Shown here piece by piece: positions 5,030 through 57,844 of a DNA stretch of 64,000 bases. The stretch's first letter is position 1; each line of letters opens with the position of its first letter. The notes beneath the pieces are model-generated. The model saw nothing but the letters and a program-made list of their open reading frames with translations, made no database searches and had not been told where the DNA came from. A program made the position numbers and the translations under genes. The DNA is taken from positions 2,728,001-2,792,000 of the forward strand of contig NZ_CP021138.1 in the NCBI RefSeq assembly GCF_002162035.1, read 5' to 3'. Source of the DNA: Sulfuriferula sp. AH1 (GTDB taxonomy: Bacteria > Pseudomonadota > Gammaproteobacteria > Burkholderiales > Sulfuriferulaceae).

Positions 5030-6397
5030 TTACTCCAAATGTCCGATTGCCTGTGCCAATGCCACTTTGGCGATACGCCAGTTATATTGGGCCTGCACAC
5101 GCTGGCTGCGCGCACTCGCCAGACTGGATTGCGCGGTCAGCACATCGAGTATGTTACCGACGCCTGCGCGATAGCGCCCGAGCGCCATTTCAGCCGATGC
5201 AGTCGCGCTCCGGATGAGGTCGGCAGTCGCATCGAGCGCTGCGGTTTCCGTGGCAAGGTTTTGCCACGCCCGCCATACGTCGAGCGCGACCTGATTGCTC
5301 AATTGGGCTTGCTGCGCTTCCTGCGCATTCGCCTGCGCTTGTGCGGCGCGAATTTGATAGGTGCTGTTGAAGCCAGTGAAAATCGGCACGTTGACGGCAA
5401 CGCCCAAACTGCTGCCGTTGCCGTTAAAACTGCCGTTATCCTGATAACTGGTATTGCCGGTGAGCGACAATGCCGGCTTGCCTGCCGCTTCCTTCGCCCT
5501 CACCTGGGCCTGAGCGGCGCGCAACTGCGCGGCGGCGGCTTGCAAATCCGGGCGCTGCTGTTGCGCCTGCAGGATCAGGTCACGCACATTGCCGACCAGA
5601 TCCCTGGGCATCACGTCATCCGCAGAACCACTCAGATTCAACGCATGATCGGCATCCCAGCCCATCGCGTTAGCCAGCACGCCTTGTGCGACCCGCAGAT
5701 CACCCTCGCCGCGCAATGTTGCCAGGCGCGCCTGGGAATAGGCAGTTTGCGCCTGCAACACATCGGCGCGCGTATTGGTACCCGCCTGATAACGCGCATT
5801 GGCAGCATCGAAACTCGATTTGGCCGAACTCTCCGCCTCATGCAACGCATCGACCTGGGCTTGCGCGGCAAAATACTGGTAATACGCCTGCACTACGGCA
5901 AGGTAAACCGTATTCACGGCCTGATCCTGATTGCGATTGGCCGCTTCCAGCGTCGCTTGTGCAGCATCACGCTGGGCGCTGCGCGCCCCGAAATCAAATA
6001 GCAGGTAATTAATGGATAAACCCAGATTGCGATTGGTTGCGGTCAATCCGGTAAGCACACTGCGGTCGTGACTGATGCCGGCCGTGCCATTGACCGTGGG
6101 CAAATACGCGCTTTGGGCGCTCCCCACCTGCGCCGCAGCCACGCGTGCATTTGCCCACGCGGTACGCGTCTGCGGATTATTGCACAGCGCGACATCGATT
6201 ACGTCGGTCAGGCTCATTACCGTGCGCGGTATCGCGCAATTGCGATCAAGATAACCCGTGACGCCCGGCGCGACCTTCGCATTCACGCTGAAAGGATCGC
6301 TGCCCGACATCTGACCAGCCAAGTCGTTGTCAGCCGCCTGCGCAGTCAATGCCAGACAGCAGCACCCGTACAAAAAATTTCGGTTAAACTTCATCAT
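5030..6397 (-). CDS. TolC-family outer-membrane efflux protein
   Basis: The 455-residue product has a signal peptide (about residues 1-21, cleaved after AQA) and two repeated OEP domains with long amphipathic helices rich in Ala, Gln and Asn, for example residues with AAQVGSAQSAYLPTVNG and the repeat-like AAQAQVRAKEAAGKPALSL. Motif and length fit the TolC/NodT fold that forms a trans-periplasmic duct. It is the first gene of the five-gene exporter operon. Its start codon lies only 28 bp from the divergent mutM start, so its promoter probably extends into mutM. Confidence 0.92.
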   Translation of the reverse strand: MMKFNRNFLYGCCCLALTAQAADNDLAGQMSGSDPFSVNAKVAPGVTGYLDRNCAIPRTVMSLTDVIDVALCNNPQTRTAWANARVAAAQVGSAQSAYLPTVNGTAGISHDRSVLTGLTATNRNLGLSINYLLFDFGARSAQRDAAQATLEAANRNQDQAVNTVYLAVVQAYYQYFAAQAQVDALHEAESSAKSSFDAANARYQAGTNTRADVLQAQTAYSQARLATLRGEGDLRVAQGVLANAMGWDADHALNLSGSADDVMPRDLVGNVRDLILQAQQQRPDLQAAAAQLRAAQAQVRAKEAAGKPALSLTGNTSYQDNGSFNGNGSSLGVAVNVPIFTGFNSTYQIRAAQAQANAQEAQQAQLSNQVALDVWRAWQNLATETAALDATADLIRSATASAEMALGRYRAGVGNILDVLTAQSSLASARSQRVQAQYNWRIAKVALAQAIGHLE

Positions 6398-6425
6398 TCG
6401 TCTTTATAGTTTATCGATAGATCAC

Positions 6426-7244
6426 ATGCCCGAGTTACCTGAAGTCGAAACCACATTGCGCGGCTTGTTGCCCCACACTCTTCATCGCACGATTATGAGT
6501 GTCAGTATACGCAATCCGAAGCTGCGCTGGCCCATCCCCTCCAACCTCGCCGAGCTGACCCGACATCAAGCCATCCATGCGCTGAGCCGTCGCGGCAAAT
6601 ATCTGCTCATGCATCTGGATAACGGCACTGTCATCATACACCTGGGCATGTCCGGCAGTTTGCGCATACTAGACAGCGAAACCCCCACCGGGGTTCATGA
6701 TCATCTTGATATCGTGCTTGATAATCAGCAGTGTATCCGCTTGCGTGACCCCCGTCGATTTGGCGCGGTGCTGTGGGCCGAACACGATGCACTCGCCCAC
6801 CCGCTGCTGGCCAGCCTCGGCATGGAACCGTTATCCGACGACTTTAACGGCGATCTGCTTTACCGCAAGTCGCGTGGCCGCAGCAGCCCGGTCAAGGCCT
6901 TTATCATGGACAGTCATATTGTGGTTGGGGTAGGCAACATCTACGCCAACGAAGCGCTTTTTCATGCCGGCATCCACCCCACGCTTGCTGCGGGCAAAAT
7001 CAGCCGCCCGCGCTATGCACGTCTCGCACAGGCCATCCGCGACACATTAAGCAAGGCCATCATCGCCGGCGGCAGCAGCCTGCGCGATTTTGTCGGCAGC
7101 GACGGCGCCGCCGGCTACTTCCAGCAACAGTATGTTGTATATGGCCGCACCGGCTTGGATTGCCGCATTTGCGGCCAGCCGATACAACAACTGCGACAGA
7201 ATCAGCGCACCACGTTTTATTGTCCGCACTGCCAAAAAAAATAA
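6426..7244 (+). CDS. mutM: Formamidopyrimidine-DNA glycosylase
   Basis: This bifunctional glycosylase and AP lyase removes 8-oxoguanine and Fapy lesions in base excision repair. The start was placed at MPELPEVET because Pro and Glu right after Met form the catalytic N-terminus. The 272-residue length is normal. The C-terminus carries the zinc finger CRICG followed by CPHCQ. A longer in-frame reading upstream would bury the catalytic proline and is rejected. No strong Shine-Dalgarno site is visible. The gene is divergent from the exporter operon. Confidence 0.97.
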   Translation: MPELPEVETTLRGLLPHTLHRTIMSVSIRNPKLRWPIPSNLAELTRHQAIHALSRRGKYLLMHLDNGTVIIHLGMSGSLRILDSETPTGVHDHLDIVLDNQQCIRLRDPRRFGAVLWAEHDALAHPLLASLGMEPLSDDFNGDLLYRKSRGRSSPVKAFIMDSHIVVGVGNIYANEALFHAGIHPTLAAGKISRPRYARLAQAIRDTLSKAIIAGGSSLRDFVGSDGAAGYFQQQYVVYGRTGLDCRICGQPIQQLRQNQRTTFYCPHCQKK

Positions 7245-54509: not shown

Positions 54510-55262
54510 TCAGACTTTGATATAAGTCCACCCACCTTGCAATCGATTTACAATTTCCTCGATCGCCGTCGGCGTCACCTGAGTGTGCGGCAACAGCTTT
54601 ACCTTAACACCCTCTTTATCCAAACGGCGCATGGTTTGGTTACATGCCACAAAAATCACATTAGGGTGACTTTGGATCAAGCCGTTTATGCGTGCGGCGT
54701 AAGGCGTGACATCCGAGCGCAACATATTGAGCCCGTAGTGACTTGCAATCACCTCCACCTGCACCGGCTGTCCCAGCACCGCCTGATGCCGAGTCAGGTA
54801 ATCGACGTCATCCAGCAGGGTTTTGAATTTGGCAGGATCGGCGGAATCCACATGCATCACGACTTTATGTATATCTTCCGACACCCCGGCCAGGCTGACC
54901 GGACGCAACGTACCAACAGGAAACGCGACATGCGGCTGCGGCTGTGCCTGCGCCACTTGCGCAGCCGGAGCAGACTGACTCCAGTCGTGCCCCAGCCAGC
55001 CCAGAGTCAATCCCAGAGCCAGCATCGCACCCGCCACCAGCGACCTCGGTACGTAAAACTGCCGCGCCCACTCTTTCCGCACTAATACCGGCAGCTCTGC
55101 ATAGCCGTGCCGCACAAGCTCTTTGACAGCACGCAACTCGCAAACCTGCTGCGCCACTTCAGGATCAGCCTCAAACTCGGCGAACAAAGCGTCCTTCTCT
55201 GCAACATCCAGTTCGTCATCGACAAAAGCGTTTAGCTGTTCGTTTGAAATTTCCGGGCTCAT
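54510..55262 (-). CDS. Membrane anti-sigma factor with periplasmic DsrE-like domain
   Basis: The 250-residue protein has a cytoplasmic anti-sigma domain (about 1-65) with the hallmark NEQLNAFVDDELD, a membrane helix (73-94), a Gln/Pro linker (95-120) and a periplasmic domain (130-250) homologous to the exported DsrE protein at 56002. Shared features are HKVVMHV, Cys207 in CNQTM, and the end GWTYIK. The zinc motif H-x3-C-x2-C is reduced to one Cys41. It overlaps the sigma gene by 4 bp. It probably holds the sigma factor and senses a periplasmic signal. Confidence 0.82.
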   Translation of the reverse strand: MSPEISNEQLNAFVDDELDVAEKDALFAEFEADPEVAQQVCELRAVKELVRHGYAELPVLVRKEWARQFYVPRSLVAGAMLALGLTLGWLGHDWSQSAPAAQVAQAQPQPHVAFPVGTLRPVSLAGVSEDIHKVVMHVDSADPAKFKTLLDDVDYLTRHQAVLGQPVQVEVIASHYGLNMLRSDVTPYAARINGLIQSHPNVIFVACNQTMRRLDKEGVKVKLLPHTQVTPTAIEEIVNRLQGGWTYIKV

Positions 55263-55837
55263 TTCACTATCCTCAATACCGTACCTTTGGTAACAGGCGC
55301 CAATTCAATCAATGCTTCCTTCAGCGCCAAACGTCCCCTGCACAGTCGGCTCATCACTGTACCCACAGGAATCGCCAGAATCTCGGCAACCTGGTTGTAG
55401 CTGAATTCTTCCAGATCCACCAATGTCAGCACCTGACGCTGCCCTATCGGCAATAAGGCAATTGCCGCACGCACACGGTCCACTACCTGACTGCGCGAAT
55501 TGATATGCTCTGGCGTCTCGTTATGGGCGTAAAGGTAGTCTTCCAGATCCTCCACATCCTGGAAATCCTTCTGGCAGCGCAGACAATCACGCCAGCAGTT
55601 ATGCAAAATCTTGAACAGCCAGCTGTCCAGCTGGGCCGGATCACGCAGCTGATGCAGGTGCGACAGACCACGCGTAAGCGCCTCCTGTGCCAGATCATCT
55701 GCCAGCGTCCGGTCATGGCACCAGGAATAGGCGACACGATACAGGCGCGTCCGCCTTTCCTTGATCTGAGCGCTAATCCCGATGTTCACACCCACCAAAT
55801 CCAATAAATTCATTATTTTAAACCCATCTCTATCCAT
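55259..55837 (-). CDS. ECF (extracytoplasmic function) sigma factor
   Basis: The 192-residue protein has region 2 (YRVAYSWCHDRTLADDLAQEA) and region 4 with the helix-turn-helix EFSYNQVAEILAIPVGTVMSR (cited in pieces). No region 1.1 or 3 is seen. It forms the first gene of an operon with its anti-sigma factor. The predicted start of transcription near 55842 makes the second ATG (55813, MNLLDLVG) the more likely start, giving 184 residues. It probably recognises the promoters at 55848-55930. Confidence 0.9.
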   Translation of the reverse strand: MDRDGFKIMNLLDLVGVNIGISAQIKERRTRLYRVAYSWCHDRTLADDLAQEALTRGLSHLHQLRDPAQLDSWLFKILHNCWRDCLRCQKDFQDVEDLEDYLYAHNETPEHINSRSQVVDRVRAAIALLPIGQRQVLTLVDLEEFSYNQVAEILAIPVGTVMSRLCRGRLALKEALIELAPVTKGTVLRIVK

Positions 55838-55847
55838 CCACCTTAAA

Positions 55848-55881
55848 TTAAGACGTACGTCCAGAATGTTTTATTCCATCA
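55848..55881 (-). promoter_or_regulatory. Predicted ECF promoter of the sigma/anti-sigma operon
   Basis: The minus strand reads TGATGGAAT (55881-55873), 17 bp, then CGTCTTAA (55855-55848). GGAAT and CGTC are typical ECF -35 and -10 cores. It is the mirror copy of the promoter at 55899. Confidence 0.75.
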
Positions 55882-55909
55882 AAATTATTTATTTTTTATG
55901 ATGGAATAA
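55871..55909. repeat. Perfect 11-bp inverted repeat between divergent ECF promoters
   Basis: TTATTCCATCA (55871-55881) and TGATGGAATAA (55899-55909) are perfect inverses with a 17-bp AT-rich centre. Each arm holds one -35 box, which explains the symmetry. The centre could bend or bind another protein. Confidence 0.9.
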
Positions 55910-55932
55910 TACCGGAATTCGATTCGTCTTTA
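55899..55932 (+). promoter_or_regulatory. Predicted ECF promoter of the DsrE-porin operon
   Basis: TGATGGAAT (55899-55907), 17 bp, then CGTCTT (55925-55930). Box sequences and spacing are identical to the opposite promoter. Transcription would start near 55937, giving a leader of about 65 nt. Confidence 0.75.
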
Positions 55933-56001
55933 CTTAACGCACCTGATTACAAAACCGTGCACTTGGCTAATTACATCGTCTAACCGCAACAGGAGAAATG
56001 C

Positions 56002-56451
56002 ATGGGCAACACAATCGCCAAACTACTTTCTACCACCATGGCGCTATTCAGTCTGGTGCTGGCCCCTCTGAGCCATGCAGCAGTCAAACCGGATGCAGAA
56101 CCGATCAAAGTGGTTTATCACATTAACGATGCTTCGCGGGCCAGCGCGTTGCTCAAAAATGTGGAGAACCATTTGCGGGCGGCACCCGGCAGCAAGATAG
56201 CCGTAGTCGCTCACGGCAAGGGGATAGATTTCATGCTCAACAATGCCCAGGACGCGAACGGCAATCCCTACAACGTAATTATGGAAACATTGGCGCAGCA
56301 AGGAGTGGAGTTCAAGATCTGCAACAACACGCTTAAAAGCCGCAACCTGACCGCTGCCGATGTCGCCTACCCGGCCGTAGTCGTTCCGTCCGGCGTGGCT
56401 GAAATCGCCCGCCTGCAAGCAAAAGAGGGCTATGTCTATTTGAAACCTTAA
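56002..56451 (+). CDS. Exported DsrE-family protein
   Basis: The 149-residue protein has a signal peptide (about 1-27, SHA then AV) and a DsrE-like domain of the COG1416 type with KVVYHINDA, Cys107 in CNNTL and the end GYVYLKP. The same cysteine motif appears in the neighbouring anti-sigma factor. DsrE-type proteins bind sulfur or form thiol-dependent complexes. AGGAG lies 7 nt before the ATG. A porin gene follows after 49 bp, and both are probably controlled by the ECF promoter. Confidence 0.87.
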   Translation: MGNTIAKLLSTTMALFSLVLAPLSHAAVKPDAEPIKVVYHINDASRASALLKNVENHLRAAPGSKIAVVAHGKGIDFMLNNAQDANGNPYNVIMETLAQQGVEFKICNNTLKSRNLTAADVAYPAVVVPSGVAEIARLQAKEGYVYLKP

Positions 56452-56500: not shown

Positions 56501-57844
56501 ATGAAGAAATACGCATTACCACTCGCCCTCCTCTCAGGATTGGCCATTTCCAACACCAGCCACGCTACCGACTGGATGTCAGTCCAAGGCCTGGAGCCTG
56601 CAAACGCACCGGCATACAAAATCTGGGGCTTTATACAACCGACCTACACCTATATCGATTCCAAACCCGTGACCGGATTGCAGGGTGCCGCCGCTACCTA
56701 CAACAATCATCAGCAGATCCCGAACCTGGTTGGCCCGGATCTGGACAGCACCCAAAACATACAGCTGTTCCGGGCGCGCTTGGGTGTCAGAGGCAAATTA
56801 AAAGCCATCGACGACCGCATTAACTACTTCGTGCTCCTGGAAGCCGGTCGTAATGGCGTCACCCGCGACCAAAGCGTCGTTCTCAGCGATGCCTCCATGA
56901 CCTTCAGCTACATTCCCGGCATGCACCTGCGCGCCGGCTTGTTCAAGCTGCCTACAGGCGAAGAGGCGTTGTCTGCGGTTCACGTTGCCTACAACTACAT
57001 CAATTTCACCAACGTCACCGATGGCTTGCTCAATGAACGCGATATGACGCCAAAAGCCGCCATCCCCGGAACACCCGCCGGACTGGCCGCCGCCTCGGTA
57101 ATGGGCAGCCTCAGCGGATTCCGCGACATCGGGGTAGAAGCATTCAACACCTTCCGCAAGAATCGCTGGGAGTTTGGTTACGCCGCGATGATTTCCAACG
57201 GCAACAATATCAATTTCATCACCGACAACAACCATGCCAAAGACTTCACCGGCAGACTGCAGGTCTCCTACATATTCAATGGCGCAGGCCCTAACCGTGA
57301 AGACGTCAACGCCTGGATCTGGCACCAGGAAGGTAAGCGCACGTTCGGCGGTACAGATTACAACCGCATGCGTGAAGGCACCGGCTTCAAATACCTAAAA
57401 GATAATCTGCGCTTCTCCGGCGAATATATGCGCGGCGCAGGCATGATCTACAATGGCCCGAACCCGCCATTCGTCGATATCCCGACGGATAGCACACCGG
57501 CTCCGGTCGATACCGTGGCGTTACAGGATTACAATAAGGCGGACGGCTGGTATCTGGAAGGCGGCTATCACTTCCTGCCAAAGTGGAGAGCCAACCTCAA
57601 ATATGATGTGTATCATCGCCTGACCAACTCACAGCAAGCGGCAAACCAGCGCAACTTCAACACCTGGACAATAGGCGGCGAATACTTGCTCAACAAATCG
57701 ACTCACTTCACCATGACTTATGAAATCCGCAAAGCTGAAGTGGCCAATCCGTCTGCACTCACTGGCGCAAACCTGAATAATGCGATGATCATTGCAAACA
57801 ATCTGGGCAACCGTATCAGCCTGCAAATGACTCACATATTCTAA
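56501..57844 (+). CDS. OprO/P-like outer-membrane porin
   Basis: The 447-residue protein has a signal peptide (about 1-22, SHA then TDW), beta strands with FIQPTYTYID, and the core GMHLRAGLFKLPTGEEA, typical of the phosphate-selective porin O/P family, and it ends in Phe. It may carry an anion such as sulfate, thiosulfate or phosphate; the family does not decide this. It is likely in one transcript with the exported DsrE gene. Confidence 0.87.
   Translation: MKKYALPLALLSGLAISNTSHATDWMSVQGLEPANAPAYKIWGFIQPTYTYIDSKPVTGLQGAAATYNNHQQIPNLVGPDLDSTQNIQLFRARLGVRGKLKAIDDRINYFVLLEAGRNGVTRDQSVVLSDASMTFSYIPGMHLRAGLFKLPTGEEALSAVHVAYNYINFTNVTDGLLNERDMTPKAAIPGTPAGLAAASVMGSLSGFRDIGVEAFNTFRKNRWEFGYAAMISNGNNINFITDNNHAKDFTGRLQVSYIFNGAGPNREDVNAWIWHQEGKRTFGGTDYNRMREGTGFKYLKDNLRFSGEYMRGAGMIYNGPNPPFVDIPTDSTPAPVDTVALQDYNKADGWYLEGGYHFLPKWRANLKYDVYHRLTNSQQAANQRNFNTWTIGGEYLLNKSTHFTMTYEIRKAEVANPSALTGANLNNAMIIANNLGNRISLQMTHIF

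Follow-up and report, generated by a model that had tools for sequence, protein, structure and literature searches.

An ECF26-like promoter pair and an anti-sigma factor with a DsrE domain suggest a self-regulating, sulfur-sensing switch in Sulfuriferula sp. AH1

The window analysed here, a stretch of 64,000 nucleotides from Sulfuriferula sp. AH1, carries two back-to-back ECF26-like promoters, predicted from sequence and conservation, one leading to the genes for an ECF sigma factor and a membrane anti-sigma factor and the other to the genes for an exported DsrE-family protein and a porin. We read this arrangement as probably an ECF26-like self-regulating switch with a sulfur-sensing DsrE domain, the details of which are left open. 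Control of the module by these promoters is well supported by sequence comparison among relatives, and the identity of the signal and the step that releases the sigma factor we infer. To our knowledge, the sensing of sulfur compounds in the periplasm of sulfur-oxidising bacteria, where Sox chemistry takes place, is poorly known. The DsrE domain common to the inhibitor and the exported protein suggests a switch that senses sulfur compounds outside the cytoplasm, and with an invariant cysteine in the sulfur-carrier fold of the anti-sigma factor, and a conserved promoter pair reporting its state, this idea would become testable at one residue and two promoters.

Both promoters have the form TGATGGAAT-N17-CGTCTT. 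The one serving the sigma and anti-sigma genes (55850..55881, minus strand) reads as TGATGGAAT at 55881-55873, N17, and CGTCTT at 55855-55850; its counterpart facing dsrE and the porin gene (55899..55930, plus strand) reads as TGATGGAAT at 55899-55907, N17, and CGTCTT at 55925-55930. Between the two -35 boxes lies a 17-bp centre (55882..55898) composed entirely of A and T, possibly an UP element common to both promoters, and on either side of it TTATTCCATCA (55871-55881) and TGATGGAATAA (55899-55909) are perfect 11-bp reverse complements. An earlier note on this DNA had described the same box and spacing on both strands, facing outwards from a 17-bp AT-rich centre and creating a perfect 11-bp inverted repeat; direct reading confirms each of these points, and the pair is unique in the genome, since TGATGGAAT-N16-18-CGTCT is found nowhere else in the 2.9-Mb AH1 genome (two contigs, 2,916,145 bases, the larger 2,877,007) and the reversed-pattern control is found at 0 sites. 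The shorter pattern GGAAT-N16-18-CGTC has 5 sites in the 64-kb window against 1.55 expected, a number reached in 0 of 100 shuffles.

The boxes stay with the genes in many beta- and gamma-proteobacterial loci. We compared 93 loci, comprising the window, 12 of the 26 loci L033-L058 (14 were left out as copies of named loci) and L063-L142, searching for GGAAT-N16-18-CGT, with 200 dinucleotide shuffles of the same regions as the control. A sigma-side box is present in 88 of the 93 (shuffle mean 2.45, maximum 9), a divergent box in 64 (mean 2.4, maximum 8), and both in 62 (mean 0.06, maximum 1); two of the five loci without a sigma-side box (L070 and L097) reach a contig end. The earlier note had named, as the outcome that would count against it, relatives that keep the genes and lose the paired boxes, and the numbers keeping one or both boxes lie far above the shuffles. 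At 80% identity the sigma proteins form 47 clusters, of which 28 contain a two-box locus and 44 a locus with a sigma-side box. The N17 spacer occurs in both boxes of 58 of the 62 two-box loci, and every N17 site (80 of 80 sigma-side, 60 of 60 divergent) has GGAATA and CGTC although the pattern required only GGAAT and CGT; beyond these two motifs, information in the aligned sites drops quickly. The space between the boxes averages 60% A/T (59 loci) versus 40% for the loci overall, and the distance from box start to box start ranges from 26 to 246 bp in the 62 loci, being below 100 bp in 59. A fixed palindromic operator was rejected given this variable distance, and helical phasing of the two boxes was dropped, as the resultant length climbs steadily from 0.20 to 0.56 over periods of 9.5-12 without peaking at 10.5, and the loci, being related, are not independent observations. 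The description of the promoters as ECF-type is upheld, and because the boxes match the ECF26 consensus and remain with the genes across loci, autoregulation and co-control of both arms by the sigma factor are likely; very probably the AH1 sigma factor uses both boxes.

A wide regulon in AH1 was considered and rejected: genome-wide, GGAAT-N16-18-CGTCT has 11 sites against 4 reversed controls and GGAATA-N15-17-CGTC has 19 against 14, near chance, and of the 17 GGAATA-N15-17-CGTC sites beyond the pair, 15 lie inside open reading frames longer than 130 aa and 2 do not. There is no GGAATA-N15-17-CGTC site near the one soxY match of AH1 (C1:2544046). Two individual sites were recorded. At G000:C1:953157-953181 (L062, L207), GGAAT-N16-CGTC stands about 110 bases ahead of another exported AH1 DsrE gene; this site also falls within an antisense open reading frame and may be a chance occurrence. 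At G000:C1:1521885-1521910 (L164, L211), GGAATA-N16-CGTCT stands about 30 bases before the gene for an exported 256-aa protein, HAD-like by eye, which is a possible further target.

The two arms hold what the earlier note had assigned to them, as judged from Pfam domains and architecture: the ECF sigma factor and membrane anti-sigma factor leftwards, the exported DsrE protein and porin rightwards. The sigma factor (55259..55813, minus strand, 184 aa) has Sigma70_r2 and Sigma70_r4_2 domains. Its reading frame is open from the ATG at 55837, and translation probably starts at the ATG at 55813 because the alignments of most relatives begin only at residue 9; a start there gives a leader of ordinary length. 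As in the ECF26 group, the AH1 boxes and those of relatives have -35 GGAAT(A) and -10 (C)GT(C), and the sigma gene is followed by one for an anti-sigma factor with an N-terminal anti-sigma domain, one membrane helix and a predicted periplasmic C-terminal domain. That last domain is of the DsrE type instead of resembling the RsiW-like domain of the Sinorhizobium meliloti EcfR proteins, and we therefore call the sigma factor ECF26-like rather than ECF26. In a quick tree, which gave long-branch warnings, the DsrE-type sigmas (47 of 93 used) separate from 31 others with an SH-aLRT of 96; among these 31, a box is found in the sense direction in 7, divergently in 8, and in both directions in 3. A tBLASTn search of plasmids gave rhizobial sigmas as the best matches among those listed, with a divergent S8 serine peptidase gene in three of the four regions inspected and the fourth unannotated. 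In L093, two sigma/anti-sigma pairs of this kind are found, one immediately upstream of the other.

The anti-sigma gene (54510..55262, minus strand) overlaps the sigma gene by 4 bp and encodes a membrane protein of 250 aa, predicted to consist of helices at residues 7-55, a membrane helix at 73-96 and a DsrE domain at about 128-250 that includes Cys207. The window's protein has no Pfam match, PF02635 included, and PF02635 matches 6 of 26 family members (best E 3e-4). By blastp, residues 119-249 align with the exported DsrE protein (29% identity, E 6e-7), and profile-profile comparison of 26 anti-sigmas with 14 exported DsrEs gives a probability of 99% and E 2.6e-18. Searched against the PDB, the anti-sigma profile and the exported-DsrE profile both find MTH1491 (E 7.7e-13 and 2.2e-29, respectively). 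In an AlphaFold model (81 sequences) the N terminus is helical, residues 73-96 form the membrane helix and the domain behind it is of the DsrE type, with pLDDT 96-98; for this domain Foldseek returns MTH1491 (1l1s, E 2.2e-8, TM 0.91 by target length), also ST0148 and, more weakly, the DsrE of DsrEFH. By these sequence and model comparisons the domain is a DsrE domain homologous to the exported protein across the promoter, and its fold is well supported; the earlier note had not recorded it. Cys207 is invariant in 81 of 81 anti-sigma sequences and aligns with the cysteine of MTH1491 and of ST0148, the position characteristic of the DsrE/DsrF-like family. The 80 relatives among these were all picked through the peptide pattern LNAF[VI]D[DNG][EQ]L, which makes conservation at the N terminus circular and that of Cys207 not so; Cys41 (window 55140-55142), in the cytoplasmic helices, is kept in at least 90% of the 81 sequences.

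The anti-sigma DsrE domains (41 used) also separate in a quick tree from 56 exported ones, with an SH-aLRT of 97. The anti-sigma factor of L058 (1094-1744, plus strand) has a DsrE domain resembling the exported type and 52% identical to that of L040. Because it groups with the exported type in the tree, without firm support, fusion of DsrE to an anti-sigma factor may have happened twice, L058 perhaps representing a second, independent event. In a library of open-access full texts, no anti-sigma factor was found described as carrying a DsrE domain, and the excerpts of PMC2147049 and PMC7787665 contain nothing on such a system.

Across the promoter pair, the first gene (56002..56451, plus strand) encodes the exported DsrE-family protein of 149 aa, which matches PF02635 at E 5e-12 (46.4 bits, cut-off 22.7), has by inspection a signal-peptide-like N terminus and carries Cys107, invariant in 14 of 14 aligned sequences; a Shine-Dalgarno-like AGGAGA (55991..55996, plus strand) reads 5 bases ahead of the start codon. 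The gene for an outer-membrane porin-like protein (56501..57844, plus strand, 447 aa, Porin_O_P E 4e-7) follows, and a terminator scan between the two genes found no terminator-like site. A divergent DsrE gene within 450 bp is present in 57 of the 93 loci and absent from 36, and the divergent box accompanies 51 of the 57 versus 13 of the 36. In 31 of the 93, the divergent strand encodes a porin like the window's no more than 3 kb away. In a close relative (L033), dsrE is reduced to a remnant (about 6180-6430), both boxes are kept, and the box now precedes the porin gene.

The anti-sigma protein finds a match in 40 of 150 relatives, with both parts in one frame in 27 (26 plus G149), and phylum-wide the full-length anti-sigma/DsrE form is matched in 3 of 398 genomes. 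Genomes outside the class (L145-L153 and others) encode DsrE proteins that closely resemble the domain of the anti-sigma factor (E down to 4e-29), in matches that do not include an N-terminal anti-sigma part. Scanning the contigs of a genome collection with the single anti-sigma protein gave no relatives; scanning with the anti-sigma alignment gave 165, the best 80 of which were used. Among these best 80 of 165, 27 hosts are named to genus (the other 53 to a higher rank), and 25 of the 27 belong to what we take to be sulfur-oxidation genera, the remaining two being Sideroxydans and Hydrogenophilus.

The association with sox genes, likewise absent from the earlier note, is limited to a subset of relatives. 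SoxY is encoded by the first gene behind the divergent box in L096, L125 and L141. In L067 a YeeE-type transporter gene comes first and soxY, soxZ and soxA come after it; L101 has a gene for this type of transporter in second place; and in L114 the first gene encodes a 5'-nucleotidase-like protein that we take to be SoxB. On the other side, the anti-sigma gene is succeeded by soxY and soxZ, in the same orientation, in L048, L051, L055, L057, L109, L110 and L134. In L057 the sigma/anti-sigma pair is flanked by two soxY/soxZ sets, one on each side. Altogether, SoxY/Z/A-like genes occur in 19 of the 93 loci, in the DNA examined, and in 14 of these they lie between -2.5 and +1.5 kb of the sigma start. 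At the level of genomes, all 27 relatives that encode the anti-sigma/DsrE protein also have SoxY, versus 76 of 123 others, a comparison that falls short of full independence because 16 of the 27 (AH1 included) belong to one genus; two members of that same genus, G010 (64% complete) and G017, have SoxY and no anti-sigma match.

The mechanism we propose begins with the N-terminal helices of the anti-sigma factor, which would hold the sigma factor at the membrane. In the periplasmic DsrE domain, Cys207 would react with a sulfur species of that compartment (sulfane sulfur, or one derived from thiosulfate or sulfite), or have such a species loaded onto it, and this modification would weaken the grip on the sigma factor and turn the module on. 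Once released, the sigma factor would drive transcription from the two promoters, to the left of its own gene and that of the anti-sigma factor, and to the right of those of the exported DsrE and the porin; in relatives, the switched module would include sox sulfur-oxidation genes. In proteins of the DsrE/TusD type, the fold carries sulfur on one cysteine. We are fairly confident that the DsrE domain is the sensor, and on balance we favour a sulfur compound as the signal, although one cysteine does not reveal what is sensed.

The exported DsrE might be a feedback partner and not only a target, binding the anti-sigma DsrE domain as a hetero-oligomer so that the tightness of the hold on the sigma factor depends on how much sulfur it carries or how abundant it is, much as periplasmic CpxP acts on CpxA and RseB on RseA. 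The homologous domains encoded on either side of one promoter pair lend themselves to this idea, as do the presence of a divergent DsrE gene in 57 of 93 loci, accompanied by the box in 51 of the 57, and the L058 anti-sigma factor, whose DsrE domain is like the exported type and 52% identical to that of L040. We nevertheless think it unlikely, given that 36 of the 93 loci have no DsrE gene within 450 bp, that L033 keeps both boxes and the porin gene without an intact dsrE, and that the anti-sigma and exported kinds of DsrE form separate groups. That the exported DsrE takes part in the mechanism is similarly unlikely. A more elaborate scheme, which we offer as distinctly speculative, is a two-part periplasmic sensor in which the exported DsrE would take up sulfur and exchange either this sulfur or, as a subunit, itself with the DsrE domain of the anti-sigma factor, such that a sulfur-carrier relay and not a proteolytic cascade would free the ECF sigma factor and tune sulfur oxidation.

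What the DsrE domain senses could also be a general thiol-reactive compound, an oxidant or envelope stress, and not a sulfur substrate: the invariant feature is a single, oxidisable cysteine, and the likely control of a porin gene is reminiscent of envelope-stress regulons. The DsrE fold itself, the sox and YeeE neighbours and the 25 of 27 genus-named hosts from sulfur-oxidising genera all point the other way, and we regard this alternative as quite improbable. Least plausible, and disfavoured already, is the idea that the 11-bp inverted repeat is the operator of a dimeric transcription regulator and that the ECF boxes are incidental. The perfect palindrome with its A/T centre in the window would suit such an operator, but in the 62 two-box loci the distance between box starts varies almost tenfold while N17 is kept within both boxes of nearly all of them, and information falls away outside GGAATA and CGTC.

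The earlier note knew of no described system with this layout, which does not hold: excerpts of PMC6180224 describe rpoE6 as divergent from a serine protease gene, an arrangement widely conserved among ECF26 sigmas, and on S. meliloti pSymA we find a divergent box at the rpoE6 place, where the sigma factor is 38% identical to that of AH1. The ECF26 promoter consensus, which the AH1 boxes share with those of S. meliloti and Starkeya, is given as -35 GGAAT and -10 CGTC in excerpts of PMC6527743 and, across species, as GGAATA/GT in those of PMC6180224, which also describe the C-terminal domains of ECF26 anti-sigmas as somewhat RsiW-like. Excerpts of PMC3511301 and PMC6527743 report that RpoE1 and RpoE4 of S. 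meliloti and SigE of Starkeya novella respond to sulfite-generating compounds, that SnRpoE1 responds to tetrathionate, that in preliminary data RpoE3 and RpoE6 are not induced by sulfite-generating compounds, and that the target genes of one beta-proteobacterial group of sigmas linked to sulfite oxidase lack the GGAAT/CGTC consensus. As far as these excerpts go, the ECF26 systems (RpoE1, RpoE4 and RpoE6 of S. meliloti, SigE of S. novella) resemble that of AH1 in the -35 GGAAT(A) and -10 CGTC boxes, a gene for a membrane anti-sigma factor placed after the sigma gene, a divergent target in the rpoE6 type and a small regulon. They differ in the periplasmic domain of the anti-sigma factor, which is of the DsrE type in the AH1 family, and the AH1-family sigmas form a group of their own; four RpoE6-type anti-sigmas, RpoE6 being the one named ECF26 member compared by sequence, match the AH1-family anti-sigma profile mainly at the N terminus, and 0 of the 4 match the DsrE profile. 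With anti-sigmas of the MucA/RseA type the AH1 protein shares a helical N-terminal anti-sigma part and a single membrane helix, whereas sequence matches are weak and non-significant (6in7 E 0.11, 8z6g E 0.23) and those proteins have no DsrE domain. With DsrE/DsrF-like proteins (PF02635; MTH1491, ST0148, DsrEFH) it shares the fold and the position of the cysteine, but unlike in these proteins the DsrE domain follows an anti-sigma domain and a membrane anchor in one polypeptide and is predicted to be periplasmic. The promoter type and the divergent layout are thus already known, and what is new is the DsrE domain of the anti-sigma factor together with an output of dsrE and porin or sox genes.
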